From a virus, in IMG/VR virus record IMGVR_UViG_3300029998_000044, positions 1 to 52,555 of that record: a stretch of 52,555 nt of DNA. One strand, 5' to 3'. Under the pieces are notes generated by a model. It did not search any database. It saw nothing but the letters and a program-made list of their open reading frames with translations, and was not told where the DNA came from. Shown in pieces: positions 3,092 to 52,555 of this stretch (its first letter is position 1; the number at the start of each line of letters is the position of its first letter). Both the position numbers and the translations under genes were made by a program.

Positions 3092-3334
3092 ATGAAAAAA
3101 TTATCAGTAACAATCAATTCAGGATTAATGGAATTGTCCAGCTACAGCAACGAAGTGAGAATTGAAAATATCAGAATCGAAGAAATCATAAGGTATAACT
3201 TGCCAAAAGAAATTCAAGTATCAAAGCCTTATATTGTAAACGCAAAGATTGAAATTGAAATCATAGAATCAGGAATACATGTTGATTCTGAGGGCTACGA
3301 AAATAAGGAGGGTATCACAAATGGAGAAGGTTAA
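3092..3334 (+). CDS. Hypothetical small phage protein
   Basis: 80 aa from the ATG at 3092 (AGAAGG upstream); an in-frame ATG at 3074 lacks a clear site. The composition is rich in Ile and Glu with alternating beta-type segments (RIENIRIEEIIRYN, IVNAKIEIEIIES). Its end overlaps the start of the ERF gene by 14 nt. No family recognised. Confidence 0.65.
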   Translation: MKKLSVTINSGLMELSSYSNEVRIENIRIEEIIRYNLPKEIQVSKPYIVNAKIEIEIIESGIHVDSEGYENKEGITNGEG

Positions 3335-3986
3335 TAAGGAACTTGAATTAAAGCCTGCAACAATGAACATATACCAGAAAATCCAGAAATGTAAATGTGA
3401 GCTTGGCAAGGCAGACCTGAAAAAATCAGGGAAGAATACCTATAGTAACTACAATTACTATGAATTAGGAGACTTCCTCCCAAAGATAAATGATGTAATG
3501 GACAAATACGGATTGACAGCAATATTTAACTTCAAGGAGGATTTAGCCTCCCTCACAGTAGTAAATTGCGAGAACCCATCCGAGACATTATATTTTAGCA
3601 CACCAATCTCAATAGCAACTTTAAAAGGGACCTACGCAATCCAGAACATAGGAGCTACACAGACCTATGCTAGGAGATACTTGTATGTAATGGCCTTTGA
3701 GATAGCTGAATCCGATGTACTGGACGAGAAGGAACATGACGAGGACCTTATAGAGAGAGGCCAAAAGATTAATAAGGTTAGAGCAGCAAGCATAAATGCT
3801 ATGTTGGAACAGACCGGAGCGGATGTTAAGGGATTCCTGAGATACTACAAGCTAAAGGAAATCGAGGACATAACAAATGACTTATTCCCGGACATAATGG
3901 CAGAACTGCAGAAGAAACTTGAAAAGGTAAAGAAAGCTCCGCTCCCGGAAGTAGGTAAAAATAAAGTACCGGACCTTGGTATGTAG
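3321..3986 (+). CDS. erf: ERF-family single-strand annealing protein
   Basis: 221 aa from the ATG at 3321, with AAGGAGGG 8 nt upstream. The N-terminal 130 residues match the ERF superfamily pattern (KKSGKNTYSNYNYYELGDFLPKI, then LYFSTPISIATLKGTYAIQNIGATQTYARRYLY). ERF proteins promote annealing of complementary strands for phage recombination and genome circularisation. The Lys-rich C-terminus is probably flexible. The window also encodes an unrelated annealing protein of the RecT type at 42962. Confidence 0.85.
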   Translation: MEKVNKELELKPATMNIYQKIQKCKCELGKADLKKSGKNTYSNYNYYELGDFLPKINDVMDKYGLTAIFNFKEDLASLTVVNCENPSETLYFSTPISIATLKGTYAIQNIGATQTYARRYLYVMAFEIAESDVLDEKEHDEDLIERGQKINKVRAASINAMLEQTGADVKGFLRYYKLKEIEDITNDLFPDIMAELQKKLEKVKKAPLPEVGKNKVPDLGM

Positions 3987-4006
3987 CACAACATGAATAT
4001 ATGGTC
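3987..4006 (+). repeat. Intergenic 10-nt-loop hairpin, copy 3 (degenerate)
   Basis: CACAA, loop CATGAATATA, TGGTC. Only 3 of 5 stem pairs form, but the loop sequence, its length and the position immediately after a stop codon match the family. Confidence 0.45.
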
Positions 4007-4014
4007 CGTAATTA

Positions 4015-4121
4015 GAAAGGAGAAAAATATGAGAACAACGGAAAAAAATAAAGAAATGGCAAATGCCTTACTTAAACTAATAGCGGAAAATCCAGAATTA
4101 GAAGTAGTCCCAATGGTGGAC
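4015..4121 (+). repeat. 107-bp exact repeat of the window's last bases
   Basis: Every base from 4015 to 4121 equals 52449-52555. The repeat covers the ribosome binding site and first 31 codons of the gene at 4029. Upstream sequences differ, and the right copy is cut by the window edge. Confidence 0.97.
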
Positions 4122-5543: not shown

Positions 5544-5864
5544 ATGAAAAGAGCAGAGATATATTGGGTAGACTTAGGGGAAACAGTAGGTAGTGAACAG
5601 AGGAGATGTAGACCATGCTTAATAATACAAGCCAATTTAGGTAATGCAACCTCGCCTACAGTAACAATTGTTCCAATAACGTCTGCTACCAAGAGTTTCA
5701 CGATAACTCATGCCCCAGTAGATGGTCTTATTAAACCATCAATAGCATTATGTGAGCAGATAAGAACAGTTGATAAGAAAAGAGTAAAGGGTTATATTGC
5801 TACGGTAAGTGATTATACTATGATTAATATATCTGAAACAATAAGGTTGACATTAGGCTTATAA
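5544..5864 (+). CDS. MazF/PemK-like endoribonuclease toxin without adjacent antitoxin
   Basis: 106 aa, the normal MazF length, with GGAGAG before the ATG. Family features: KRAEIYWVDLGETVGSEQRRCRPCLII (start of the PemK fold), TVTIVPITS, and SIALCEQIRTVDKKR near the C-terminus. MazF toxins cleave single-stranded RNA at short motifs. No MazE-like gene lies upstream (only remnants) or downstream. It heads an operon with redoxin and ribonucleotide reductase genes, so it may act as a host mRNA nuclease rather than half of an addiction pair. Confidence 0.88.
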   Translation: MKRAEIYWVDLGETVGSEQRRCRPCLIIQANLGNATSPTVTIVPITSATKSFTITHAPVDGLIKPSIALCEQIRTVDKKRVKGYIATVSDYTMINISETIRLTLGL

Positions 5865-5909
5865 TGTGGTATAATGATTACAGAAGTTAAATTTAAGGAG
5901 GATTAATAA

Positions 5910-6113
5910 TTGATACTTTATAGTAACGGATGCACAAACTGTGAACGATTGAAAGAGCAACTGGATATATCTAAAATTGAATATCAAGTTTCAAGTGATT
6001 ACAGAAGGTTGATTGAATTGAATATAAGGTCTGCACCATGCTTAGAATTTGAAGATGGAAGTTTCATGCTCTATGATGAAGCCATGATGTATGCCATAAA
6101 GAAAAGGGGATAG
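5910..6113 (+). CDS. Glutaredoxin/NrdH-like redoxin
   Basis: 67 aa, TTG start behind AAGGAGGATTAATAA. The redox motif CTNC (residues about 8-11), the later conserved APCLEF (cis-Pro region) and the YDEAMMY helix fit the glutaredoxin/NrdH fold. Position immediately before nrdD suggests it supplies electrons to the reductase. Confidence 0.8.
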   Translation: MILYSNGCTNCERLKEQLDISKIEYQVSSDYRRLIELNIRSAPCLEFEDGSFMLYDEAMMYAIKKRG

Positions 6114-6116
6114 ACA

Positions 6117-7895
6117 ATGGAAAAGCAATTATTAGATTCTAAAACATTAGTGGAGGATTATTTATTCAATAAAGATTGGAGGACAAAAGAAAATTCAAAC
6201 GCACCTAGAAGTTTTGGCTCGCTCAATAAATATATAATTGGAGAAGTTAGTAAAAACTATTGGTTGAATGAAGTATACAATAAAGAAATAAAATGTGCAT
6301 ATCTTAATGGTGATTTTCACATCCATGATTTAGGGGCATTAACATTATACTGCGTTGGATATTCATTAGAAAACATACTATTAATGGGGGTACAAGGTAT
6401 AAGTAATATACCAGTATCAAGTCCACCTAAACATTTCAAAAGTGCTTTATCACAAGTTGTAAATTTGGCAACAGTATACCAAAATGAACAAGCTGGAGCA
6501 GTAGCATTCAATTCCGTAGATACGTTATTAGCACCTTTTATACGAGAAGATGATTTGGATAAAATCCAAGTTAAACAAGAATTACAGAATTTTATATTTG
6601 CCTTAAATAGCAATTCAAGAATGGGGGCAGAACCAGCATTTACAAATATAACATTAGATATAACTCCTTCACCAGATATGTTGCGTAAAAATATAATCAT
6701 AGGTGGAGATTATAGATTGGATGTATATGGTGATTTTCAAAAGGAAATGGATTTATTTAATGAATGTTTTGCTGAAATAATGCTAGAAGGAGATAGTAAG
6801 GGTCAGCCATTTTCATATCCAGTATTGACTTATAATATAGGAAAGAGATTTGATTGGAATAATCCTAAAAATGATAAAATATTTGAAATGGCTGGTAAGT
6901 TTGGATATCCATATTTTTCAAATTTTATAAATTCTGAAATGGATGAATCTGATATAAGAAGTATGTGCTGTAGACTTAGATTAGATTTAACCGAGTTAAG
7001 AAGAAGAAATGGTGGATTATTTGGAGCAGGAGATTCAACTGGTTCAATTGGTGTAGTGACTCTAAATATGCCTAGAATAGGTTATATATCATCAAATGAG
7101 ATTGAATTTTTTAATAAACTAGATATTATATTGAATTTAGCAAAAGATTCATTAGAACTCAAACGAGTATTCTTGCAAAATGAAGTATTGGATGGTGGAT
7201 TAATTCCAGCTTATTCTCAATATGTTGGAACGATTGATAATCATTTTAGCACTATTGGTATAATTGGGTTTAATGAAATGTGTGAAAACTTTTTAGGAAA
7301 AGACATACTATCAATAGAAGGTAAAGAGTTCTCCGTAAAAGTTGGTGAATATATCTTAAATAAAATAAAAGAATTTCAAGTAGAAACTGGTCATCTATAT
7401 AATTATGAAGCATCACCTAGCGAATCAACTTGTTATAGACTGGCTAAAAAAGATAAAGAGTTATTTCCCGATATAATAACACAAGGTAATTCAGTTCCAT
7501 ACTACACTAATTCTTCTCATATACCAGTATCCAAAGTAACTACTATCAATGATATGATGGCACATCAAGAAGCTTTACAAGTTCAATTTACTGGAGGATG
7601 TGTAAATCATATATATTTAGATGGAGCAATATCTGGTGAACAAGCTAAACATATGGTTAAAACTTGTTTAACAAATTATAGAAATCCATATATAAGCCTT
7701 TCTCCAGTAAATAGATATTGTCCAGAACATGGTTATATTGAAGAACGAGTTGAAAATTGTCCTAAGTGTGGTATGAAGTTGGATATTATGCAACGCGTAA
7801 CTGGTTATTTAAGGAAAGTTGAAAATTTCAATGATGGTAAAAAAGAAGAATTTTATGATAGAAAACAATTTAATGGTATAATTGATTTAAAATAA
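6117..7895 (+). CDS. nrdD: Anaerobic (class III) ribonucleoside-triphosphate reductase
   Basis: 592 aa glycyl-radical enzyme that reduces NTPs to dNTPs without oxygen. It starts 3 nt after the redoxin stop. The C-terminus shows a zinc site (CPEH, then CPKC) and the glycyl-radical loop RVTGYLRKVENF. A Cys pair lies in SMCCRLRLDL and the substrate-pocket segment QFTGGCVNHIYL is also present. It is shorter than cellular NrdD (about 700 aa) because no N-terminal ATP-cone is visible, suggesting little allosteric shut-off by dATP. The neighbouring redoxin suggests a redoxin-dependent rather than formate-dependent type (inference). Confidence 0.96.
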   Translation: MEKQLLDSKTLVEDYLFNKDWRTKENSNAPRSFGSLNKYIIGEVSKNYWLNEVYNKEIKCAYLNGDFHIHDLGALTLYCVGYSLENILLMGVQGISNIPVSSPPKHFKSALSQVVNLATVYQNEQAGAVAFNSVDTLLAPFIREDDLDKIQVKQELQNFIFALNSNSRMGAEPAFTNITLDITPSPDMLRKNIIIGGDYRLDVYGDFQKEMDLFNECFAEIMLEGDSKGQPFSYPVLTYNIGKRFDWNNPKNDKIFEMAGKFGYPYFSNFINSEMDESDIRSMCCRLRLDLTELRRRNGGLFGAGDSTGSIGVVTLNMPRIGYISSNEIEFFNKLDIILNLAKDSLELKRVFLQNEVLDGGLIPAYSQYVGTIDNHFSTIGIIGFNEMCENFLGKDILSIEGKEFSVKVGEYILNKIKEFQVETGHLYNYEASPSESTCYRLAKKDKELFPDIITQGNSVPYYTNSSHIPVSKVTTINDMMAHQEALQVQFTGGCVNHIYLDGAISGEQAKHMVKTCLTNYRNPYISLSPVNRYCPEHGYIEERVENCPKCGMKLDIMQRVTGYLRKVENFNDGKKEEFYDRKQFNGIIDLK

Positions 7896-7951
7896 AGATT
7901 GACAATGTATAAGTGACATAAATAATAATAGAAGGTGGAGGTATACAACAA

Positions 7952-8509
7952 ATGGTTAGATATAAATATATAGAACATGAACGCAGTGAAGATGCTAATT
8001 TTATTGGAGCATTGATAGTAGCATCTGATTGCAAAATAAAATGTAGAGGATGTTTTAACCGTGACATCAAAAAGATGGAAACGAAGAAGGATACTGCACA
8101 GAATATCATCAAGGAGGTGCTTTCTAATCCATTCAACGAGGGTATTATACTAGCTGGCTTGGAGTGGTCTAGCACACCTACAGACCTCGTAGAACTGGTC
8201 ACAGAAGCCGATAAACATGGTCTGAAGATAATGATATACACAGGATTAGATTTGGGTGAGTTTGAAATGAGGATAGGCAAGGCTTGTTGCGATAAGGTTG
8301 GAATTAAAGAACTTCCAAAAGATTACAATGATACTTCAATGATGTATGCTTGTATTGGTGGGATGGTTCTTGATAATGCAATCCATAGTGATTATTATAT
8401 AAAATCTGGAGCATATGTAAAGGAACTGGAAGTAACTGGTAGAGAAGCATTTGGTGTGACATTGGCAACAAGTAATCAGAATGTTATAAAAATTCAGAAA
8501 GAGGTGTAG
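7952..8509 (+). CDS. nrdG: Anaerobic ribonucleotide reductase activase (radical SAM)
   Basis: 185 aa. The radical-SAM 4Fe-4S motif is CKIKCRGC (Cys spaced 3 and 2), followed by FNRDIKKM. It generates the glycyl radical on NrdD using S-adenosylmethionine. GGTGGAGG precedes the ATG. It lies 56 nt after nrdD and ends 1 nt before the dUTPase ATG. Slightly longer than usual NrdG, with a C-terminal extension. Confidence 0.94.
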   Translation: MVRYKYIEHERSEDANFIGALIVASDCKIKCRGCFNRDIKKMETKKDTAQNIIKEVLSNPFNEGIILAGLEWSSTPTDLVELVTEADKHGLKIMIYTGLDLGEFEMRIGKACCDKVGIKELPKDYNDTSMMYACIGGMVLDNAIHSDYYIKSGAYVKELEVTGREAFGVTLATSNQNVIKIQKEV

Positions 8510-13702: not shown

Positions 13703-14023
13703 ATGATTTGGGTTAAATCACAGGAAGGTAATGCAATACACGAATGTTCTGGTGTATTTGTCAATGAATGTTCGCTTAGGGTATTCAGTGGGGAACAGTG
13801 GAACACAGTTGGTAGATATGATACTCCAGAGATAGCACAGGATGTTATGAGGATTGTCTGGAGGGCAATACAGAGTGGTGGTAATGCAGTAAACTTACCT
13901 ATCAATTCGGATGGCTCATACACTGACAAAATAGATGTAACTTCCTTTGAAGGTGGTAAAAGAGAGATAGATGGTTTGAAACATAGTCCCGATGAATATA
14001 TTATAAATTTTGCGAGGGTGTGA
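13703..14023 (+). CDS. Hypothetical phage protein
   Basis: 106 aa, starting directly after the preceding stop with GGGAGG upstream. Beta-rich start (MIWVKSQEGNAIHECSGVFV) with GRYDTPEIAQDVMRIVWRAI in the middle; similar short proteins occur in clostridial phages. No function. Confidence 0.6.
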   Translation: MIWVKSQEGNAIHECSGVFVNECSLRVFSGEQWNTVGRYDTPEIAQDVMRIVWRAIQSGGNAVNLPINSDGSYTDKIDVTSFEGGKREIDGLKHSPDEYIINFARV

Positions 14024-14027
14024 GATA

Positions 14028-14357
14028 GTGGATACTAATAGATTAAAGGTCATGCTAAATGAGGTATCTGACATAAAAGGTAAACGAAAAGCTATGAATT
14101 ATTGGTTTAGGTGTGAATGTGAAAAGTTAAAACCAACTACTGTAAATTGGTGGTTGGGAACTTCACCTAAAATACTTGACAGAGTTATTATAGATGTGTA
14201 TAATGAATATGTAGAGTATTGTCATGTAAAACACAAAAGACCATTCAAAAGGACAAAGTTTGGAATTGAAATGACATCGTTTGGATATGTGTCAAAGGTA
14301 AAAACTATAAAAGGTGCAAATTACCGAGTGTATGATAAAGTTACAGATTACAATTAA
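14028..14357 (+). CDS. Winged-helix protein resembling the primase D5 C-terminal domain
   Basis: About 109 aa from the GTG at 14028 (GAGGGTG upstream). The C-terminal half (RPFKRTKFGIEMTSFGYVSKVKTIKGANYRVYD) resembles the winged helix at the end of P4/D5-type primase-helicases, and TTVNWWLGTSPKILD could be part of it. The full primase-helicase at 49554 lies elsewhere, so this could be a separate DNA-recognition module. Moderate certainty. Confidence 0.5.
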   Translation: MDTNRLKVMLNEVSDIKGKRKAMNYWFRCECEKLKPTTVNWWLGTSPKILDRVIIDVYNEYVEYCHVKHKRPFKRTKFGIEMTSFGYVSKVKTIKGANYRVYDKVTDYN

Positions 14358-14724
14358 ATTACAGACCAGTTACAAGTTGAATTGAAATCAGTACAATGAT
14401 TGGTATCACTGGGTTACAACTACTATTATAATTTTAATATATTAAAAAGGTTGTAACCTTCTGTAATTATTGATATGACTGGATGGAGCATATATATTAC
14501 TATATAATACAACTATTTCTTCTAATAAAAAGTAATATAAAGTAATATATAAATGATATATATAGAGAATAGGAAAGTTGCGTAATCTGTAATTTGAAAT
14601 TTAAAGAATTAAGCTATTACTTGCTTGCGAGGATTTCAAAAATTACAAAATTACAGAACGATTTTCGACTATTCTAATTTTCGACCAAAACGGTTATAGT
14701 ATTACTGAAAAGGAGTTGATATAA
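14358..14724. promoter_or_regulatory. Non-coding control block A upstream of terS
   Basis: 367 bp without a gene. It holds many copies of RTTACAG/CTGTAAY-like words (ATTACAG 14358, GTTACAA 14369 and 14413, CTGTAAT 14461, GTAATCTGTAATT near 14583, ATTACA pairs near 14640-14655), and the 14-bp palindrome AAGGTTGTAACCTT (14447-14460). TTGATATGACT (14470) and a TAAAAAGTAATAT stretch (14526) also recur in block C (41242-41734). It ends in the candidate late promoter at 14691. Confidence 0.65.
14691..14709 (+). promoter_or_regulatory. Candidate late promoter element (terS)
   Basis: CGGTTATAGTATTACTGA. It shares the GTTATAGT core with sites at 18416, 23703, 26536 and 36424. There is no TTGACA-like box upstream. 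Possible target of the phage sigma-like factor. Confidence 0.5.
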
Positions 14725-15246
14725 TTGGCAAATAAAGGAATTCATACTTCGCCAGAAACTGCTGGTATACAAAATATGCCACCAAATTATCCAGATACAC
14801 ATAAAGATGATTTAGGAACAATGAAAGGCTTAATGCCTATATGGAACAGAGGATTTCAAAACAGAGAGAATTATAAAGGCCTTTGGACTCCAGAAACTTT
14901 GAAAATGGAAATTAATGCCTTTTTTGAATATTGTTTCGATAATGAAGTCAAACCAGCTAAAGTGGGGCTATCACTATGGTTAGGGGTTACGAAACAAACT
15001 TTATGGGTTTGGGAAAAAGAATCTACGGATTTCAAATCTGACCTTATAAGATGGGCAACATCATTAATTGAAATGTCTTATGTGGGCAGAGCCGAGAAAT
15101 ACCCAACTGCAAACATATTCTTGCTAAAATCATCTCATGGTCATGTTGAAACTTCCAGATTGGATGTAGTTGCGACAAATGAGCAGATGCAGACTGATGA
15201 AGTACAAGACAGAATTGCACAACTTGGACTAGATAAGCCTAAATAA
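14725..15246 (+). CDS. terS: Terminase small subunit
   Basis: 173 aa, TTG start with AAGGAG 10 nt upstream. A helical DNA-binding N-terminal half (WTPETLKMEINAFFEYCFDN, then VGLSLWLGVTKQTLWVWEK with a helix-turn-helix look) and a NIFLLKSSHGHVE segment fit phage small terminases. It recognises the packaging site and recruits TerL. It is separated from TerL (19467) by more than 4 kb containing unrelated genes, which is unusual. Confidence 0.75.
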   Translation: MANKGIHTSPETAGIQNMPPNYPDTHKDDLGTMKGLMPIWNRGFQNRENYKGLWTPETLKMEINAFFEYCFDNEVKPAKVGLSLWLGVTKQTLWVWEKESTDFKSDLIRWATSLIEMSYVGRAEKYPTANIFLLKSSHGHVETSRLDVVATNEQMQTDEVQDRIAQLGLDKPK

Positions 15247-15254
15247 TGTAAATT

Positions 15255-15277
15255 GCACTCAGAAATGGGTGCTTTTT
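15255..15277 (+). terminator. Rho-independent terminator after terS
   Basis: GCACTCA pairs with TGGGTGC around GAAA, followed by TTTTT. Confidence 0.9.
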
Positions 15278-15479
15278 CTATGCCCAGAAATAATAGGGGT
15301 AGAGTGGTCAAAATAGGCATTTTTACGATGGGGCTATAGGCTGATTCCCAGACTTGATATTTTGATTTGCTCAACGGAGAGCATAGGGAAATGTGTTCAA
15401 CGTATACTTTGTTCACTAAGGGGGTAAAGTCGCTTAGAATGGCTCTAAATCGCATAAATAATCATTCTCCGTTAGACCT

Positions 15480-15553
15480 ACTTTCAAACTCTATAGGTTT
15501 ATGTGAAAGTTTACTTTCAAACTCTATGGGTTTTTACTTTCAAACCCTATATG
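15480..15553 (+). repeat. ACTTTCAAA repeat array 1
   Basis: Three copies of an 18-bp unit begin at 15480, 15513 and 15536 (ACTTTCAAACTCTATAGG and variants). The 9-bp core recurs in the array at 41247-41324. Confidence 0.85.
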
Positions 15554-15824
15554 TCTATGACTGGATGTGCGAATGTTTCGAAAATTGTGAATCTTCTGAA
15601 TATTGTGAATGTTTTGAATTTTCAGACAATTCAGATTAGTGTGGGTTGTGCGAAATGTTCAAACAATTCAAACAAATAGAACAAATGAAATAATTCAGAA
15701 TATTGTGAATGTTCGGAATGGTACGAACGTTCGTGTTTTTTCCAATAATTCGAATAGTTCATACAATTCAAACAATATATCGAATTGTGTTGTTGGAGGT
15801 AGGTTTTGGATTGGATAACTACCC

Positions 15825-15866
15825 TGTGGATAACTCTGTGGATAAGTATCATAAATCTGTGGATAA
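15825..15866 (-). promoter_or_regulatory. Cluster of three perfect DnaA boxes
   Basis: TGTGGATAA at 15825-15833, 15837-15845 and 15858-15866; each is TTATCCACA on the - strand, the exact DnaA-box consensus. A near match (TTGGATAAC) lies at 15811. They lie just upstream of a sigma-A promoter. Confidence 0.8.
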
Positions 15867-15872
15867 AATATG

Positions 15873-15901
15873 TTGACATTATATACTATGGATGTTATAC
15901 T
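15873..15901 (+). promoter_or_regulatory. Sigma-A promoter beside the DnaA boxes
   Basis: TTGACA 15873-15878, 17-bp spacer, TATACT 15896-15901. It drives the gene at 15959. Confidence 0.88.
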
Positions 15902-15958
15902 ATATTTAGAGGTTAGGAAAACGGTAACCTACTAAATGGTAAAAGGTGGTAATACATT

Positions 15959-16171
15959 ATGAAAAGATTTGAATTAGTACTGAAACAAGGTAACATGGAG
16001 GTTTTGGTATCATTTGACAAAATAGACAATGACACGTCCGAGCAGTTCATGTTTTTAAGAGTCGCTAATAAGTCAATAGCTTTACTGGATAAAAAAAGAC
16101 AGCAGTTGACTTATAAGTTCCAAACAGTAGATACCGTATTCTTCACACTAACAGAAAAGGAGGTGAAATAA
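15959..16171 (+). CDS. Hypothetical small protein
   Basis: 70 aa with AAAGGTGG upstream. Begins KRFELVLKQGNMEVLVSFDK; beta-rich, no Cys. First gene after the DnaA boxes and promoter, so its expression may respond to DnaA. No family recognised. Confidence 0.6.
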   Translation: MKRFELVLKQGNMEVLVSFDKIDNDTSEQFMFLRVANKSIALLDKKRQQLTYKFQTVDTVFFTLTEKEVK

Positions 16172-17499: not shown

Positions 17500-17574
17500 A
17501 TGTTTACTGTGCTGGTGTATATACTCATAATACCGATTGTTATAATAAAGAACTTAGTTAAGTTTAATGGTTAA
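17500..17574 (+). CDS. Very small membrane peptide
   Basis: 24 aa (MFTVLVYILIIPIVIIKNLVKFNG) with AAAGGAGGG before the ATG. One hydrophobic helix with a basic end. Short, so existence is uncertain despite the good site. Confidence 0.4.
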   Translation: MFTVLVYILIIPIVIIKNLVKFNG

Positions 17575-18012
17575 CATGATATAGATAACTACATTACATG
17601 ATATAATATACTGTATAGTTATACACTAATAATGTATAGTTATACAGTATTATTATGCCCTATTATTGCATACTAATTGTATGTATAGTGTACACAATGC
17701 ACACTAATCTGACTATTCATAATATTATTAATTATTTTAATTGTTTCGTTTGTACGAATTGTTTGATTTGTTTTAATTGTTTAAACAATGGTGAATTGCG
17801 TGAATATTCATACCCCTCCCACTATTCAGAATATTCTGACAATGACTAATCAGTCCCATTACCAACTTCTAAATTTTCTGAACAGTTTTAGTGACCTCAA
17901 AAAATTCTCGGAAAATTCTATAACAGTTTTTGCAAGTTACCGACAAGTTAGCAAAGCCAGTTATATCAATGGTTGTAGGGTTATGAATTAGTAGCAAATT
18001 AGTAGTTGCAAG
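17575..18012. promoter_or_regulatory. Non-coding AT-rich block with operator-like palindromes
   Basis: About 440 bp with no supported gene. Contains two exact 14-bp palindromes TGTATAGTTATACA (17612-17625 and 17633-17646), then AATTGTTT-rich sequence (about 17735-17790), TGAATATTCA (17801-17810) and the palindrome TCAGAATATTCTGA (17826-17839). The two open frames here are low-complexity and lack ribosome binding sites. Confidence 0.6.
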
Positions 18013-21034: not shown

Positions 21035-22528
21035 ATGATTCTCAAAGGACGTAGAAAAATAACTAGTGAATTAACTCCAGAAGAACTTCACGATAAGTCT
21101 AAGTTGGCTAAATTACTTAATACTAGCCGAGTAATTCACTTACAGAATAAATCTGAGATAGATTATTTGGTTAATTATGGTAAAGGTGACCAGCCTGTTT
21201 TATTAAAAACTAAGGTAGTCAGAGATGAAATAAACCATAAGATAGTCATGAATCATGCTCAGATGATAACTAGAAGTGTTAATGGATACTTTCTTGGAAC
21301 ACCAATTCAGTTTATACAAAGTGGATATACGGATAAGAAAGAACAGATAGATATGCTCAATAGGTTTGTACAGTATGAGGACAAGTCCTCGTCTGATAGT
21401 GAACTTGGAGTATTTCAAAGTATGACTGGTACTGCATATAGGATAATCTATACCGATGGATTATTTGCAGATGAAGTTCCATTTGAGGAAAGAACTCTTG
21501 ACCCATCAACTACTTATGTGGTATATCAGAATAATATTGCAGAGAAACCATTATTGGGGGTAACTTATTATACCATAGTTAATGAGGATAATGCAATAGT
21601 TGGAATGAAAATATATGCATATACTGATAAGGGTAGATATGAAATAGTAACTGACGATTTAAGTGGACTTGTAAATGAAGATTCAATGATTGACTTTCTT
21701 CCATACTCAGTTGGTGGTATTCCAATAATAGAATATCCTAACAATATGTGGAGAATAGGTGACTGGGAATTATGTATTGGACTCATGGATGCCATAAATG
21801 ATTTACAGTCTGGCAGACTTGATGATATAGACCAAGTTATACAGTCATTGTTAGTATTTATAAATGCTGATGTAGACCAAAATGGATATGACCAGATGCG
21901 TGAGAGAGGTATCGTTCTACTGAAGAATACTACTGGAAATCCAAGTTCCGTTCAGACTATGAGTAATGAACTTGACCATACTGGTATGAATTTGTTTTCA
22001 CAGGAATTAGAATCTATGTTGTATGCCTTGATTGGTATACCAGATAGGAATAACCGTTCTGGTGGAGGTGGAGATACTGGACAGGCAGTTGAACTTAGAG
22101 ATGGCTGGGCAGATTTGGAAACACTTGCTAGGAATAAGGAACTTGCATTTAAGAAGTCAGAGAAACAGGCTTTGAGAATCATTCTCAATATAGTGAATGG
22201 TAAGTTAGGTTTTGACCTTTCTTTATTGGATATTGATATTAAATTCTCAAGAAATAAGAGCAATAACCTTTTGGTTAAAACACAGGGATATACAACTCTG
22301 TTGGCTACAAAAACTCTTAGTCCAGAAGATTGCTTGACAATCGTTGATATTGTTTCAGATGTAAATGAGTATATATCAAGAGGTAAAGCTTTTTGGGGAA
22401 CTGCATTTGCTGGATTAGAACAAGCTACTGTTGCTGTTGATTCTAGTAAAGTAGCATTGGAAACTGCAAAAAATCCTCCAGAACCAGTTGTACAGAAGGA
22501 AGTAGTTAAAAAGGAGGTTAGTAAATAA
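21035..22528 (+). CDS. Portal protein (SPP1 gp6-like)
   Basis: 497 aa with AGGAGG upstream, 11 nt after terL. Family features include an N-terminal helical part (INHKIVMNHAQMITRSVNGYFLGTP), the central YTDKGRYEI beta region and a crown-type C-terminal helical region (VEL..DGWADLETLARNKELAFKKSEKQALRIIL). Forms the dodecameric DNA channel at one capsid vertex. Overlaps the next ATG by 1 nt. Confidence 0.93.
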   Translation: MILKGRRKITSELTPEELHDKSKLAKLLNTSRVIHLQNKSEIDYLVNYGKGDQPVLLKTKVVRDEINHKIVMNHAQMITRSVNGYFLGTPIQFIQSGYTDKKEQIDMLNRFVQYEDKSSSDSELGVFQSMTGTAYRIIYTDGLFADEVPFEERTLDPSTTYVVYQNNIAEKPLLGVTYYTIVNEDNAIVGMKIYAYTDKGRYEIVTDDLSGLVNEDSMIDFLPYSVGGIPIIEYPNNMWRIGDWELCIGLMDAINDLQSGRLDDIDQVIQSLLVFINADVDQNGYDQMRERGIVLLKNTTGNPSSVQTMSNELDHTGMNLFSQELESMLYALIGIPDRNNRSGGGGDTGQAVELRDGWADLETLARNKELAFKKSEKQALRIILNIVNGKLGFDLSLLDIDIKFSRNKSNNLLVKTQGYTTLLATKTLSPEDCLTIVDIVSDVNEYISRGKAFWGTAFAGLEQATVAVDSSKVALETAKNPPEPVVQKEVVKKEVSK

Positions 22529-23712
22529 TGGCAGAACAGAGAGTAATAGCAATTGATTTAGATAATATATCCACTACACTGACCTCCGATACCCTTATTA
22601 GACAGGGTGAGAGTAAAGCTTCAAGGCTTGAAATCACTCTCAATGAGGAATTTACTGGATTTGATTATGTGCTTGTATTCCAAATTAATGATAACATACC
22701 TTATTCGGCATCTGTAACACCAAGTGAAGGTATCTTATCATTTGAATTAAGTAATACAGTAACTTTTGATTCTGGATATTTAAAAGTTGAACTTCAAGCA
22801 TTTAATGTTGATGATGAGATATTAATAAAAACTTGTGTGTTCACATTCAAAATTAAAATGTCGGTAGAAGGAACACCTATTGATATACCTATATCTGATT
22901 ACACAGCTTATATTCAATTGGTCGAGTATTATATGAATAAAGATATATATGACCCACAGGGTATAGTATCTGACGCATTTGATATGGATAATATGACCGA
23001 TGGTGTGGATAAAGTGGCAATGTTAGTTAGTGAACGAATAAAATTAAATGAACTATCTACTGGTGGTAATTCGGCATATGCTAATCAAATTGATGCCCCA
23101 CCTATTGACCCTAATATTATAGATGATGAGTTTGATGGTGATTCTCTTGATGATAAATGGATATGGGTAAACCAAGGACTATCAAGTGTTTTAGTTGATA
23201 ATAGTATTATTGAATTAACTGCTGAAAATCAAGATAATGGAGTTGATTGTAGGGGTATAATTCAACCAGCACCTGATAGTATAGATTTCACTATTGTGAC
23301 TAAATTTTTAGGTACTAATCTTTGGAAAGATTATTCCAAAACTGGAATATTAATATCTGAATCTCCAACTGGTAAACAACTTGGTATTTGGCACGCATAT
23401 GATGGTAGTTGGAAAGGCTTGATGGGTGAATTTTTCGCAACTCCAGCTACAAGAGGTGCTTATACTTATTATGGTACACCAGTTCAAGCACAAGGTGGAT
23501 ATATTAAGACTAGGATATATAAAGTTGGTGAAATATGGTATGTTGATTTCTATTATAGTTTAAATGGATATGTTTGGATAACTTCCAAAATAGGATTGGA
23601 AATTGGGTTTACTCCAAATTATGTTGGTTTAGGATGGGACTTTGAAACAGCAGAAGTAGGAAAATCTTACTTTGATTGGTTTAGGGTTACAATTTATAAT
23701 ATTGGGTTATAG
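22528..23712 (+). CDS. BppU-like N-terminal domain fused to a laminin-G-like domain
   Basis: 394 aa. Residues about 1-150 resemble BppU/DUF2479 baseplate upper proteins (DTLIRQGESKASRLEITLNE, then FSGYLKVELQAF-like strands). Residues about 195-394 look like a concanavalin/LamG carbohydrate-binding fold (DEFDGDSLDDKWIW to SYFDWFRVTIYNI). This is the domain order of a receptor-binding or decoration protein. It lies between portal and scaffold, an unusual place. Its end carries a GGTTATAGT sequence. Confidence 0.75.
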   Translation: MAEQRVIAIDLDNISTTLTSDTLIRQGESKASRLEITLNEEFTGFDYVLVFQINDNIPYSASVTPSEGILSFELSNTVTFDSGYLKVELQAFNVDDEILIKTCVFTFKIKMSVEGTPIDIPISDYTAYIQLVEYYMNKDIYDPQGIVSDAFDMDNMTDGVDKVAMLVSERIKLNELSTGGNSAYANQIDAPPIDPNIIDDEFDGDSLDDKWIWVNQGLSSVLVDNSIIELTAENQDNGVDCRGIIQPAPDSIDFTIVTKFLGTNLWKDYSKTGILISESPTGKQLGIWHAYDGSWKGLMGEFFATPATRGAYTYYGTPVQAQGGYIKTRIYKVGEIWYVDFYYSLNGYVWITSKIGLEIGFTPNYVGLGWDFETAEVGKSYFDWFRVTIYNIGL

Positions 23713-30045: not shown

Positions 30046-30447
30046 ATGGCGGTTTCAACAGTTACTACCACACTAAATTATAAAGTTTTAGTTGGAGATA
30101 GTTATGCTAAGTTGTGCGATATAGTTAGTTATCCAGATTTGGGTTCAGCACCTTCCAAACTTGATACAACTGATTTAGCACAGACTAGTGTAAAAACTAA
30201 TATTCTTGGACTGCAAGATGCACCAGATTTAACATTTGAGTGTAATTATGATGAAGCAACGTATAACACAATAAATGCTTTGAATAAATCTACTGTATAT
30301 TTCATACAATTATTGTTTGGAACAGATGGTGCATTTACTTGGACTGGTCAAATAAGAGCATATGTAACTGGTGCTGGTGTTGACGAAGTTCGTAAAATGA
30401 GCATAGTCATTGGAACTTATACACCAATTGCATTCGCAGTAAACTAA
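30046..30447 (+). CDS. Major tail (tube) protein, copy 1
   Basis: 133 aa with AGGGGGT upstream. Tail-tube fold features include CDIVSYPDLGSAPSKLDTTD, LGLQDAPDLTFECNYDEATY and a C-terminal GAGVDEVRKMSIVI. It is closely related to the next gene. Confidence 0.85.
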   Translation: MAVSTVTTTLNYKVLVGDSYAKLCDIVSYPDLGSAPSKLDTTDLAQTSVKTNILGLQDAPDLTFECNYDEATYNTINALNKSTVYFIQLLFGTDGAFTWTGQIRAYVTGAGVDEVRKMSIVIGTYTPIAFAVN

Positions 30448-30460
30448 TAGGAGGTAAATT

Positions 30461-30871
30461 ATGGCAATATTAAGTACAGCTAATACTACACTTAATTATT
30501 GTGCCACTCAAGGTGGAGTATATACGAAACTTGTTGATATAGTTTCTTATCCAGATATGGGTGCTTCTCCATCTAAGTTAGACACAACTGACCTAAGTGC
30601 TACGGTATCTAAGACTAATATTCTTGGACTGCAAGATGCACCAGATTTAACCTTTGAATGTAACTATGATGAAACAGCATATAATACTTTGAAAGGTCTT
30701 ACTGGTACTTACTGGTTTAACCTATTCTTTGGAACTGCTGGAGCAGATGGTATATTCGAATGGCAAGGAAAAATAAACGTATTTAGTACTGGTGGTGGAG
30801 TAGACGAAGTTAGAAAAATGTCTGTAGTTGTATCTAATGCTACACCAATAACTTTCGAATATTCTGCTTAA
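30461..30871 (+). CDS. Major tail (tube) protein, copy 2
   Basis: 136 aa paralogue of the preceding gene with AGGAGG upstream. The two share VSYPDxGxxPSKLDTTDL, the entire LGLQDAPDLTFECNYDE segment and GVDEVRKMS. 38 bp of DNA (from 30206 and 30613) are identical. Confidence 0.85.
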   Translation: MAILSTANTTLNYCATQGGVYTKLVDIVSYPDMGASPSKLDTTDLSATVSKTNILGLQDAPDLTFECNYDETAYNTLKGLTGTYWFNLFFGTAGADGIFEWQGKINVFSTGGGVDEVRKMSVVVSNATPITFEYSA

Positions 30872-42961: not shown

Positions 42962-43591
42962 ATGGAAGAAATTAATGCATTAGAAACCGTAGCAAATTCA
43001 GTAGCAGTAAGACCAGATGCAACATCCACAGTAATGACTACCGAGAAGTTGATGGATATGAGCATGATGTTGGCCAAGTCCACAATAGTTCCTGTGATGT
43101 ACCAGAATAGACCAGAGAACTGCTTCGTAGCACTTGATATGGCTTCAAGGATGGGTTTGTCACCAATGGTGGTTATGCAGAACCTATTCGTTATTCAAGG
43201 TAAACCATCATGGTCTGGACAGGCAATAGCTTCAATGATTAGAGCCAATCCAAACTATCGTGATGTAGAACTTCATTTTGTAGGACAGGAAGGTACTGAT
43301 CAGAGAGGTGCATTTGTAACTGCTCATAGAATATCAACTGGTAAGACCATTGTAGGCTCAACTGTCACAATCGGCATAGCTAAGAAAGAAGGATGGTATC
43401 AGAAAGCAGGAAGTAAATGGCAGTCAATTCCAGAGGTAATGTTATCATACAGAGCATATGCTTGGTTCGGTAGGGTTCACTGTCCAGAGTTAATGATGGG
43501 TATGCAGACAATCGAAGAAGTACAAGATGTAATAATTGAAGATGCCAAAGCCAAAGTACTCAATCCATATGAAGGTGGTGTATCCAAATAA
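42962..43591 (+). CDS. recT: RecT-family single-strand annealing protein
   Basis: 209 aa with AGGAGG upstream. Family features include MYQNRPENCFVALDMASRMG, SPMVVMQNLFVIQGKPSWSG and the later SIPEVMLSYRAYAWFGRVHC. RecT/Red-beta proteins anneal complementary strands and work with a 5'-3' exonuclease; the PD-(D/E)XK gene at 43764 is a fitting partner. Confidence 0.88.
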   Translation: MEEINALETVANSVAVRPDATSTVMTTEKLMDMSMMLAKSTIVPVMYQNRPENCFVALDMASRMGLSPMVVMQNLFVIQGKPSWSGQAIASMIRANPNYRDVELHFVGQEGTDQRGAFVTAHRISTGKTIVGSTVTIGIAKKEGWYQKAGSKWQSIPEVMLSYRAYAWFGRVHCPELMMGMQTIEEVQDVIIEDAKAKVLNPYEGGVSK

Positions 43592-47249: not shown

Positions 47250-47789
47250 GTGAGTATGGATGAAATATGGAAACCAATTAAAGATTACGAATGTCTTTAT
47301 GAGGTGAGTAATTGGGGTAGAGTTAAAAGTTTAGAAAAAATTAGGGATACTCCCAACGGTGGAGTTAGAGTATATCCAACTAAAATATTAAAACAACTTA
47401 TAGTAACTGGTGGATATACTAGAGTTAAATTATGTAAAGATGGGAATGTAATTGGTCATTTAACTCATAGATTGGTGGGTGAAACACATATAAATAATGA
47501 TTTTAATAAATTATATATAAACCACAAAGATGGCAATAAAACAAATAACAATGTAGATAATTTGGAATGGTGTACTGCAAAAGAAAATGTAATACACGCT
47601 TTTGCAACAGGGTTAAATCCAATACAACGAATCGTATATCAATTTAATTTAAAATATGAACACATAGGAACATTTAAATCTACAAGAGATGCCGAACGAA
47701 TAACTGGTATAAATCATAGTGGAATTAGTTATTGTGCGTTAGGAAATTACAAACAGTATAAGGGATTTATATGGAGGTATGAATTATGA
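47250..47789 (+). CDS. HNH homing endonuclease with NUMOD4
   Basis: 179 aa. NUMOD4 DNA-binding motif at the N-terminus (WKPIKDYECLYEVSNWGRVK), HNH nuclease about residues 70-110 (HRLVGETHINN, then NHKDGNKTNNNVDNLEWCT), and a C-terminal NUMOD1/helix-turn-helix-like part (FKSTRDAERITGINHSGISY). It cuts a DNA target to spread its gene. It overlaps the polymerase start by ATGA, so it sits directly in the replication operon. Confidence 0.92.
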   Translation: MSMDEIWKPIKDYECLYEVSNWGRVKSLEKIRDTPNGGVRVYPTKILKQLIVTGGYTRVKLCKDGNVIGHLTHRLVGETHINNDFNKLYINHKDGNKTNNNVDNLEWCTAKENVIHAFATGLNPIQRIVYQFNLKYEHIGTFKSTRDAERITGINHSGISYCALGNYKQYKGFIWRYEL

Positions 47790-49504
47790 TTTTCTATGAT
47801 TTTGAATGTTTTAAAGAGGACTGGATTATTTGCTGGCTAGATGCAGAAACAAGAAAGATGCACCATATTGTAAATGACAAAGAGAAATTTGAGAAGTTCT
47901 ATGAATATTATAAACATAGAATATGGGTAGGGTATAATAGTAGAAATTACGACCAGTGGATTGCAAAGGCAATATTATGTGACTTCAATCCTTATGATAT
48001 GTCTGATTGGCTCATTAATAAGGGACAAAAGGGATTCATGTTTTCAAAACTACTTAATAAATTTCCAATATTAAACTACGATTGTTCAGTTGGATTCAGA
48101 GGATTAAAAGAACTTGAAGCATTTATGGGACACGATATCCAAGAAACTTCAGTACCATTTGACATTGATAGAAAATTAACAAATGCTGAAATTAACTTGA
48201 CATTGAAATATTGCAAGCATGATGTTATGGAAACATTTGCAGTATTCATAGAAACCAAACAGGAGTTCGAAAGCCATACTGGATTGATAAAGGAATTTGG
48301 TATGCCGATAACAGAGATTAACAAAACCAAAGCACAACTGTCTGCCATGATTCTGGGAGCGAGCAAAAGACCACACAATGATGAATTTGACATTTCATTT
48401 CCAGATACTATGGACTTAGGAAAGCATAACTGGATAGCAGATTGGTATATGGAATGGGCAACAAATGAAAAGGATTATGAAACCATGAAACTCCAGACTG
48501 ATATTAATGGTGTACCACATACTTTTGGAATAGGTGGATTGCATGGTAGCCGAGATAAGTATTTTGGAGAGGGAATATATATCATGGCTGATGTAGGTTC
48601 GTACTATCCAGCTTTAATGATAGAGTATAATTTCCTATCCAGAAATGTATCTAATCCAGCTAAGTACAAAATCATGAGGGATGAAAGGCTCGTTATGAAA
48701 GCCAATAAAGACCCTAGAGAAGCACCTAGAAAGATTGTACTTAATGGTTCATTCGGTGCATCTAAAGACCAGTACAATGCCCTATATGACCCTCTACAGG
48801 CTAATAACACTTGTATTGCTGGTCAGTTACTCCTAATTGATTTGCTTGAAAAACTTGAAGGGAAATGTGAATTGATACAGAGTAATACGGATGGTATTCT
48901 AGTTAAGGTGTATAATTTAGCAGAGAAGGATGAAGTTATTGCTATGTGTGAAGCATGGGGAGCAAGAACTAGAATGACTATGGAATACGATATGTATTCT
49001 AAGGTTATCCAGAAGGATGTAAACAACTATATCATAATTCCAGAAGGTGAATTGTATGATAGCAAAGGCAAGCCAAAATGGAAGTGTAAAGGAGCATGGG
49101 TAAAGAAGTTGAGCCTATTGGACAATGACCTTCCTATCGTAAACAAGGCAGTCAAGGACTACTTTATTTTTGGAATACCAGTGGAGCAGACTATTGGACA
49201 GGCTAATATGTTAATAGACTTCCAGAAGGTTACAAAAATATCCAGTAAGTATTCTCATGGACACCATAATGGAAAGGTAATAACTGGAAAAGTACACAGA
49301 TGTTTTGCAAGTGCAGATTCAAAAGATGGTACACTTTACAAGTATCACAAAGGAAAAGAAGCATTGGAAAAGACTTCCAGTACACCAGTAAACTGTTTTT
49401 TGGATGATGGGAATATTGAAGGTAAGAGAGTGCCAGCTAAACTTGACAAAAACTGGTATATAGATTTAGCCAATCAGAGAATAAAAGATTTTGTTGACAG
49501 ATAG
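47786..49504 (+). CDS. Family B DNA polymerase
   Basis: 572 aa, short for the family. Exonuclease motifs: FYDFECF (Exo I, DxE), YNSRNYDQW (Exo II) and YCKHDVMET (Exo III). Polymerase motifs: DVGSYYPALMI (A, DxxSLYP-like), KIVLNGSFGASK (B, Kx3NSxYG-like) and SNTDGIL (C, DTD-like). It replicates the phage genome with proofreading. No terminal-protein-priming signature was sought beyond sequence inspection. Confidence 0.9.
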   Translation: MIFYDFECFKEDWIICWLDAETRKMHHIVNDKEKFEKFYEYYKHRIWVGYNSRNYDQWIAKAILCDFNPYDMSDWLINKGQKGFMFSKLLNKFPILNYDCSVGFRGLKELEAFMGHDIQETSVPFDIDRKLTNAEINLTLKYCKHDVMETFAVFIETKQEFESHTGLIKEFGMPITEINKTKAQLSAMILGASKRPHNDEFDISFPDTMDLGKHNWIADWYMEWATNEKDYETMKLQTDINGVPHTFGIGGLHGSRDKYFGEGIYIMADVGSYYPALMIEYNFLSRNVSNPAKYKIMRDERLVMKANKDPREAPRKIVLNGSFGASKDQYNALYDPLQANNTCIAGQLLLIDLLEKLEGKCELIQSNTDGILVKVYNLAEKDEVIAMCEAWGARTRMTMEYDMYSKVIQKDVNNYIIIPEGELYDSKGKPKWKCKGAWVKKLSLLDNDLPIVNKAVKDYFIFGIPVEQTIGQANMLIDFQKVTKISSKYSHGHHNGKVITGKVHRCFASADSKDGTLYKYHKGKEALEKTSSTPVNCFLDDGNIEGKRVPAKLDKNWYIDLANQRIKDFVDR

Positions 49505-49553: not shown

Positions 49554-51482
49554 ATGCAACTTTTTAAGGGGTATATAGCAAGTAATGGTAAAATTCCCTT
49601 GTCGAGTGTTAAGACAGGGGATATACTTCCAGAGCCACCAGCAACAGGAGATTTTGTAGGGGTTCTGAAAGACAATATAATTCAACTTGATTTTGATGAT
49701 GAAGAAAGTTCCAAGATAGCTTTAGAGATAGTCAACGAGTACAAACTTAGATGTGACATACTCAAGACCACAAGAGGTATTCATTTATACTTCATAGAGG
49801 ATGGCACAGTAAAAAGTCAATCCGTTGGAGTATTCAATGCTATTGGACTTCATTGTGATATTGGATTAGGATTCAAGAACAGAGTGATACCACTCAAAGT
49901 GACCAAGGATAAGAATGTAATCAGAATTGTGAATGGGGAAGAAGTTCAATCGACTACCAAAGAAACCACATTAAGAGAGTGGGTTCAGACATATGATGAA
50001 TTGGATAAACTACCAGCATTTTTCAGACCGATAGGAAAAGTAGACCATAACCTAAAAGGATGTAATACTAGAAACCAAAGCCTATTCAGTTATATACTTG
50101 TACTTCAAACTCACAATTTCAATAAGGATGAAACCAGAAGGACTATCAAAATCATAAACAAGTATGTAGTGGAGTCAGCTTTGGATGATAGCGAGATTGA
50201 TACCATAACAAGGGATGAAGCTTTCTCAGAAGAATTGTTCTACAATGAGAGAGGTAGTTTCCTCCATGACCGTTTCGGTAACTATATGCTCACAAACTGC
50301 AACATCATAATGATTGACGGACAGATACACATTTATACGCACGATAATCTATACAGTAATGACCCAGCAGAGTTTGAAAAAGTAATGCTTGACAAAATAC
50401 CAAGTTTGAGAGATAATCAAAGAAAGGAAGTTTACAAGTATATTGCTTTGAAATGCAGTGCCATTGGAGAGTTCGCTAATTCCAAATATATTGGGTTAAA
50501 AACTACTATATTGGATATTGAAACAGGGGATGAATTTCCATATTCTCCTAAATGGATTATAAACAATAGAATCAATATCGACTATGACCAGACTGCGTAT
50601 TCCAAAGTTATGAATGATACACTGAATAAGGTATGTTGCCATGACCCACAGATAAGGTCTTTACTGGAAGAAATGATAGGGTACACTATGTATCGCAAGA
50701 ACTCAATGCAAGTATGTTTCATATTGACAGGGGAGGGTTCAAATGGTAAGTCAACAATCCTTAATTGTATCAAAAAACTGCTCGGTAAGCAAAATTATAC
50801 TTCACTCGATTTACGGGAACTTGAAGAAACCTTCAAACCAGCCGAACTATACAATAAACTCGCCAATATCGGTGATGATATATCAGCGAAATACCTTGAA
50901 AATTCCTCCGTATTCAAAAAAGTGGTTACAGGAGAATCCTTCATGGTACAACGCAAATATGCTCAGCCGTTTGAACTTGAGTGTTATGCCACACAGATAT
51001 TCTGTGCCAACGAACTTCCACAAGTGCATGACAAGTCAGACGGATTCTCAAGGCGAATAGTGCTTGTACCATTCAATGCCAAATTCCAGAAAACGGATGC
51101 CGATTATGACCCATTCATAGAGGACAAACTTCTATCAGATGAAGCTATAAACTATTTGTTAAAAATTGGCGTTGAGGGATTGACCAGAGTAATATACAAT
51201 AAGCAGTTCACTAAGTCAAGTGCTGGAGAATCTGAGAAGGATGATTATATGAAACTCAATAACAATATGCTTGAATGGTTCGAGAATGACCCTAGCATAG
51301 AGAATGAGAGTGTCAACGATGTATACCTTGCCTATCAAGTCTGGTGCGTTCAGAATGGATGTATGGCAGTTAAAAAGCTTAATTTCAGCAAGGATATAAA
51401 GAAACATAAGAAACTGGTGTCAAAACCTAAGACAATTCAAGGAAAGTCGGTTCGAGTGTATGTGAGGGAGGATGATGTGTAA
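49554..51482 (+). CDS. Primase-polymerase/SF3 helicase (D5/P4-like)
   Basis: 642 aa. The N-terminal about 140 residues look like an archaeo-eukaryotic primase: IIQLDFDDEESSK (DxD) and TTRGIHLYF (sxH). The C-terminal SF3 helicase has Walker A LTGEGSNGKSTIL, Walker B-like ANIGDDIS and motif C IFCANELPQ, with an arginine-bearing segment GFSRRIVLVPF. A bifunctional primase-helicase for phage replication. Confidence 0.9.
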   Translation: MQLFKGYIASNGKIPLSSVKTGDILPEPPATGDFVGVLKDNIIQLDFDDEESSKIALEIVNEYKLRCDILKTTRGIHLYFIEDGTVKSQSVGVFNAIGLHCDIGLGFKNRVIPLKVTKDKNVIRIVNGEEVQSTTKETTLREWVQTYDELDKLPAFFRPIGKVDHNLKGCNTRNQSLFSYILVLQTHNFNKDETRRTIKIINKYVVESALDDSEIDTITRDEAFSEELFYNERGSFLHDRFGNYMLTNCNIIMIDGQIHIYTHDNLYSNDPAEFEKVMLDKIPSLRDNQRKEVYKYIALKCSAIGEFANSKYIGLKTTILDIETGDEFPYSPKWIINNRINIDYDQTAYSKVMNDTLNKVCCHDPQIRSLLEEMIGYTMYRKNSMQVCFILTGEGSNGKSTILNCIKKLLGKQNYTSLDLRELEETFKPAELYNKLANIGDDISAKYLENSSVFKKVVTGESFMVQRKYAQPFELECYATQIFCANELPQVHDKSDGFSRRIVLVPFNAKFQKTDADYDPFIEDKLLSDEAINYLLKIGVEGLTRVIYNKQFTKSSAGESEKDDYMKLNNNMLEWFENDPSIENESVNDVYLAYQVWCVQNGCMAVKKLNFSKDIKKHKKLVSKPKTIQGKSVRVYVREDDV

Positions 51483-52418: not shown

Positions 52419-52436
52419 ATAATATGAATAAATTGT
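52419..52436 (+). repeat. Intergenic 10-nt-loop hairpin, copy 14
   Basis: ATAA pairs with TTGT (one U-G) around TATGAATAAA. It follows the thyX-like remnant and precedes GAAAGGAG. Confidence 0.6.
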
Positions 52437-52448
52437 GATTAACATTTT

Positions 52449-52555
52449 GAAAGGAGAAAAATATGAGAACAACGGAAAAAAATAAAGAAATGGCAAATGC
52501 CTTACTTAAACTAATAGCGGAAAATCCAGAATTAGAAGTAGTCCCAATGGTGGAC
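52449..52555 (+). repeat. 107-bp exact repeat of 4015-4121
   Basis: Identical to 4015-4121 up to the window edge. The bases just before (ATTTT against AATTA) differ, so the repeat has a sharp left border in the ribosome binding site region. Confidence 0.97.
52463..52555 (+). CDS. Second copy of the acidic hypothetical gene (truncated by window edge)
   Basis: 31 codons identical to the start of the gene at 4029, with the same GAAAGGAG site. The 3' end lies outside the window. It shows that this gene is present at least twice. Confidence 0.85.
   Translation, partial: MRTTEKNKEMANALLKLIAENPELEVVPMVD

Follow-up and report, generated by a model that had tools for sequence, protein, structure and literature searches.

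Three exact DnaA boxes in a phage contig of 52,555 bp (the whole stretch of DNA analysed, referred to here as the window) lie in the final part of a 712-bp non-coding gap that also holds two further repeat systems, both missed by the initial annotation. Our preferred explanation, offered tentatively and at somewhat less than even confidence, is that the boxes are accessory sites for host DnaA within an older, family-wide control region, where they would assist or time an origin for which DnaA is not strictly required. The conserved anatomy of this phage family is a set of iterons following terS, not the DnaA triplet, and the boxes seem to be an optional addition to the phage's own origin rather than its core.

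The DnaA boxes and their setting

The window encodes an endolysin, Erf, NrdD/NrdG, terminase, portal, capsid, RecT, a DNA polymerase and a primase-helicase. The gap (15247-15958) separates terS from a new operon beginning with a 70-aa ORF at 15959, and its elements follow one another in the order terminator-like hairpin, three iterons, 9-bp-period array, DnaA boxes and promoter (Table 1). A terminator-like hairpin after terS was noticed by eye in L020, L024 and L025 as well. Searches with the gap DNA returned zero matches among sequenced phages, those with the box region returned only short and weak matches to plasmids, and no prophage relatives were found in genome contigs.

Table 1. Features of the terS-proximal region and of the replication genes; positions are those of the window except in the last row
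Feature	Position	Strand	Remarks
115-aa stand-alone protein	14010-14357	+	Resembles the C-terminal end of the phage primase-helicase; just upstream of terS
Small terminase subunit, terS	14725-15246	+	Pfam GP3_package, phrog_606
Intrinsic-terminator-like hairpin	15255-15272	+	After terS; upstream operon ends here
Three iterons, CTTTCAAAC[T/C]CTATRNGT	15481-15554	+	Starts 15481, 15514, 15537
9-bp-period array, GAANNTTNN-like	15562-15790	both	
DnaA box 1, TTATCCACA	15825-15833	-	Exact match
DnaA box 2, TTATCCACA	15837-15845	-	Exact match
DnaA box 3, TTATCCACA	15858-15866	-	Exact match; centre ~-46 from inferred transcription start
Sigma-70-type promoter, TTGACA-17-TATACT	15873-15901	+	11/12 matches; TG before -10
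70-aa ORF	15959-16171	+	First downstream of promoter; no family match
Second 9-bp-period array	17677-17855		~2.1 kb downstream of first
DNA polymerase	47786-49504	+	
SF3/D5-type primase-helicase	49554-51482	+	
Three perfect DnaA boxes of L020	6738, 6749, 6761	+	Positions in L020

The initial annotation had described three perfect boxes on the minus strand within 42 bp, next to a TTGACA-17-TATACT promoter, and both were confirmed at their exact positions. Exact copies of TTATCCACA number four in the window on both strands together (expected 1.01), the fourth being a single site at 23004-23012 inside the coding ORF 22528-23712. The accompanying claim that such a density is unlikely by chance also holds, as the Poisson expectation for three copies on one strand within 42 bp is ~5 × 10-8 per window. 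A degenerate copy, TTATCCAAT, read by eye on the minus strand at ~15811-15819, adjoins box 1. Judged from their match to the consensus, the three boxes are very likely bound by host DnaA.

Iterons and 9-bp-period arrays

The three iterons of the gap share the full form CTTTCAAACYCTATRNGT at 15481, 15514 and 15537, and the remaining 51.8 kb of the window contains none. TerS and TerL searches revealed nine further lineages with a terS-proximal gap, namely L006, L015, L020, L021, L022, L024, L025, L168 and the near-identical group L171-L173; the near-identical contigs L002-L005 (100% over the shared stretch) are uninformative on conservation. Every one of the ten lineages has same-strand iterons of the TTTCAAAC/T type, two to seven in number, just after terS and almost none elsewhere, with the variant TTTCAAATCGG in L171/L172.

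The first 9-bp-period array has a lag-9 identity of 0.65, compared with at most 0.475 in 40 simulated copies, and the window has no ORF of at least 60 aa running across it. Arrays over the threshold occur in five of the ten lineages (the window, L006, L020, L024 and L168), and L015 and L172 have weaker or shorter ones. The second array of the window sits at the far end of a small-gene block; similarly paired arrays, the second ~1.6-2.2 kb downstream of the first, are found in L006 (second array at ~5760-6330), L024 (at ~2800) and, more weakly, L015 (at ~3300). The idea that these arrays are degenerate DnaA boxes was rejected, as TTWTNCACA occurs in none of them. A palindromic element near ACTTTAACGTGCTAAAGT is repeated in the gaps of L020 (6480-6715, where it separates the 9-bp array from the DnaA boxes), L022 (3400-3480) and L172 (~5760-5815) and is absent from the window. 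An uncharacterised cis-acting region of TTTCAAAC iterons and 9-bp arrays marks the terS/terL family, and among published accounts of DnaA boxes in phages none was found that describes this family.

Distribution of the triplet among relatives

Conservation of the boxes, which the initial annotation had proposed as a check, turned out to be confined to two of the ten lineages, the window and L020. The L020 triplet stands at the equivalent place on the opposite strand, with spacings of 11/12 as against 12/21 in the window. Apart from the boxes of L020, no exact box pair within 30 bp was found in seven records besides the window, and the loci retrieved for the remaining lineages have no such pair within 40 bp. 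G003 (the record of L025 and L018; 47,968 bp), the near-complete closest kin of the window, has no box pair anywhere.

In the TerL tree L020 pairs with the box-less L024 at full support, and the triplet must therefore have changed, by gain or loss, at least twice. Moreover, the other strand and spacing of the L020 triplet argue for selection on DnaA binding and against a single inherited accident. The two triplet lineages and their nearest box-less relatives, which share the same surrounding region, form a natural experiment on the contribution of host DnaA to a phage.

A putative origin assisted by host DnaA

The control region after terS comprises same-strand iterons and the next operon's promoter, usually with a 9-bp-period array as well. 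Its iterons would be bound by a phage protein, either the SF3 primase-helicase, which would make the region a phage origin, or TerS, which would make it a pac site; candidate initiators are the helicase itself and the 115-aa protein encoded upstream of terS. Host DnaA on the triplet would then be an accessory that helps or times strand opening and loading of the phage initiator, and it may incidentally affect the adjoining promoter. The direct repeats and the repeat array between operons give the gap a resemblance to known phage-origin layouts.

The replication proteins point in the same direction. By sequence, the nearest solved chain to the primase-helicase is 7ola (E = 1.3 × 10-26), which we take to be a staphylococcal self-loading Rep helicase. 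With a helicase of this type DnaA should not be needed to load a DnaB helicase, and since most relatives also lack the boxes, DnaA would be a helper, not an essential initiator. The 115-aa protein matches the C-terminal end of the helicase at 31% over 67 aa (E = 2 × 10-5), and homologues of it are encoded near terS in G003 and L020. A phage polymerase and SF3 helicase of its own, together with this helicase-like gene adjoining terS, would suit an accessory role for DnaA; against that role, the boxes are missing in eight of the ten lineages and the iterons might just as well form a pac site.

Three boxes clustered in non-coding DNA match the arrangement of at least three that a DnaA-driven origin would have, and same-strand iterons lie close to them as in P1-type origins. 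DnaA-dependent origins are further expected to carry three or more DnaA-trios no farther than ~16 bp from a box (PMC8287927). Beside the window boxes only a weak NTN run was found, scored as highly by 28% of shuffles, and there is no trio beside the L020 boxes. Likewise, no low-stability unwinding element adjoins the boxes, the adjacent DNA not being unusually unstable: in 100-bp windows the 9-bp array ranks mid-genome, and the 100 bp from the promoter onward fall in the lowest 4-6%. The least stable 200-bp stretches of the whole window, 14419-14620 and 17541-17740, flank the terS/gap block. The GC skew, suggested earlier as a check near 15.8 kb, is positive everywhere without a minimum and so is uninformative for an origin.

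The proposal of the initial annotation that the boxes form an origin or a DnaA-controlled promoter therefore survives in part. In its favour stand a non-chance, non-coding cluster, a triplet at the equivalent place in L020, and surroundings of a replication- or packaging-like kind (iterons, array, inter-operon site). As an origin claim it is weakened by the sparse distribution, the near-complete relative lacking any box pair, chance-level DnaA-trios, ordinary stability and the missing skew minimum. A bolder form of the accessory role, in which a self-loading SF3 helicase of the phage drives replication across the family and lineages repeatedly gain a perfect host-DnaA triplet at the iteron region as an optional sensor of the host cell cycle while the origin otherwise ignores DnaA, is speculative and on present reckoning unlikely.

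Comparison with known systems

In iteron-plasmid and P1-type origins, DnaA assists an initiator encoded by the element itself, and a host factor would assist an element-coded initiator in the phage too. The gap shares with P1 oriR and iteron plasmids the combination of direct-repeat iterons and compact same-strand DnaA boxes in one non-coding region. However, no such Rep was found among the phage ORFs scanned, the iterons adjoin terS instead of a rep gene, and the phage boxes are dispensable across the family. To judge by titles cited in PMC5043065, one DnaA box suffices at P1-type origins, and its position affects directionality and copy number.

Other systems are alike in fewer respects. The oriL and oriR of SPP1 consist of direct repeats and an AT-rich region (PMC6316719), a likeness within a phage, but SPP1 uses gp38/gp39/gp40 (with a DnaB-type helicase and loader), and DnaA is unmentioned in that account. 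SaPI-type origins depend on a self-loading SF3 helicase Rep, which the phage primase-helicase likewise resembles through its match to 7ola, although the phage gap is not beside the helicase gene. Perfect tandem consensus boxes in one orientation recall the basal unwinding system of bacterial oriC; unlike oriC, the phage region has no significant DnaA-trio or adjacent unwinding element.

Packaging, promoter control and other explanations

The gap may instead be a pac region bound by TerS, with the boxes as a separate regulatory insertion, an explanation that can be combined with either role of the boxes and is possible, if on balance unlikely. The iterons have a direction, follow terS closely in every lineage and are almost missing from other places, and TerS belongs to the GP3_package family, so that directional repeats stand beside the gene for a headful-type TerS as they would at a pac site. 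Furthermore, the contig ends of G003 overlap by ~131 bp at 99% inside terL, as expected of a circularly permuted genome. The more distant relative L182 carries ~8 tandem ACTTTCGTA 9-mers directly 3' of terS (5799-5880), a possible compact pac or origin array that is counted here in favour of packaging. Packaging by itself leaves the DnaA boxes unexplained, however. Wherever the record of an iteron-bearing lineage extends as far as the replication module, a helicase relative of at least 51% identity is also present, so that helicase and TerS go together and their co-occurrence favours neither as the iteron ligand.

Alternatively, DnaA may act as a transcription factor that activates or represses the promoter at 15873 and ties the downstream operon to the host DnaA level, which we consider rather unlikely. 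The boxes do adjoin the promoter, as at DnaA-regulated promoters: box 3 ends 6-7 bp before the -35 (15873-15878; -10 at 15896-15901), the box centres lie about 46, 67 and 79 bp upstream of the inferred start, and boxes 2 and 3 are two helical turns apart. L025, which has the same -10 and leader (TGTTATACTATATTTAGAGGTTAGG), lacks boxes and its -35 (TTGTGT) is poorer, a contrast counted in favour of promoter control; it also means that the promoter is not box-dependent throughout the family. In L020 a strong promoter (TTGACT-18-TATAAT, minus strand, 6678-6649) likewise sits beyond the 5' end of the boxes, directed away from them. This promoter is nevertheless ~60 bp from the boxes and would transcribe the non-coding gap in the direction of terS, and the forward promoter of L020 is ~300 bp from the boxes, so that compared with the window the orientation is mirrored, the distance different and the target another.

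A survey of viral contigs bears on the same question. At least 120 carry TTATCCACA three times with gaps of at most 16 bp, a class that is mixed because plasmids and host DNA may be among the IMG/VR contigs. Among the matches listed, 64 of the 79 unique triplets fall outside ORFs of at least 100 aa (expected 22.4), and promoter-like sites are not enriched near them, with 16 compared to 21.4 ± 3.8 at random intergenic positions. AT-rich flanks and DnaA-trios are not enriched beside the listed triplets either. Viral triplets therefore look like selected DnaA-binding clusters, unlike oriC unwinding modules or, class-wide, promoter operators, and for these intergenic triplets, among the matches listed, a non-promoter role fits better. 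Promoter control is nearly as good an explanation as accessory DnaA sites for the window alone, and is weakened by the mirrored geometry of L020 and by the survey. DnaA-box triplets, mostly intergenic and, as a class, not promoter-linked, are present in at least 120 public viral contigs.

It is improbable that the boxes serve as decoys, replicated phage copies soaking up host DnaA and slowing initiation of the host chromosome. Exact consensus boxes, variable orientation and an accessory distribution fit such a position-independent role, and in E. coli the initiation mass rises when multicopy plasmids carry DnaA boxes (PMC5835720), which is counted in its favour; three sites per genome are few, though, and their placement in the gap twice over would be unneeded. 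Chance or neutral repeat expansion, in which the TGTGGATAA copies could come from local duplication (two boxes have similar flanks, repeat family D4), is highly improbable given the Poisson expectation above and the perfect triplet that L020 has at this place in another arrangement.

Further observations on the contig

A 135-bp repeat, 93% identical, links 52421-52555 with 3990-4121, and the assembly probably broke at this repeat because the contig end falls within it. Another repeat (30118-30269 and 30536-30687, 79% identical) lies within the structural gene region. Two distinct single-strand annealing proteins, Erf-like (3279-3986) and RecT-like (42962-43591), are encoded in the one phage. 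Finally, the genes for an NrdD/NrdG-like anaerobic ribonucleotide reductase (6117-8509) suggest an anaerobic host.
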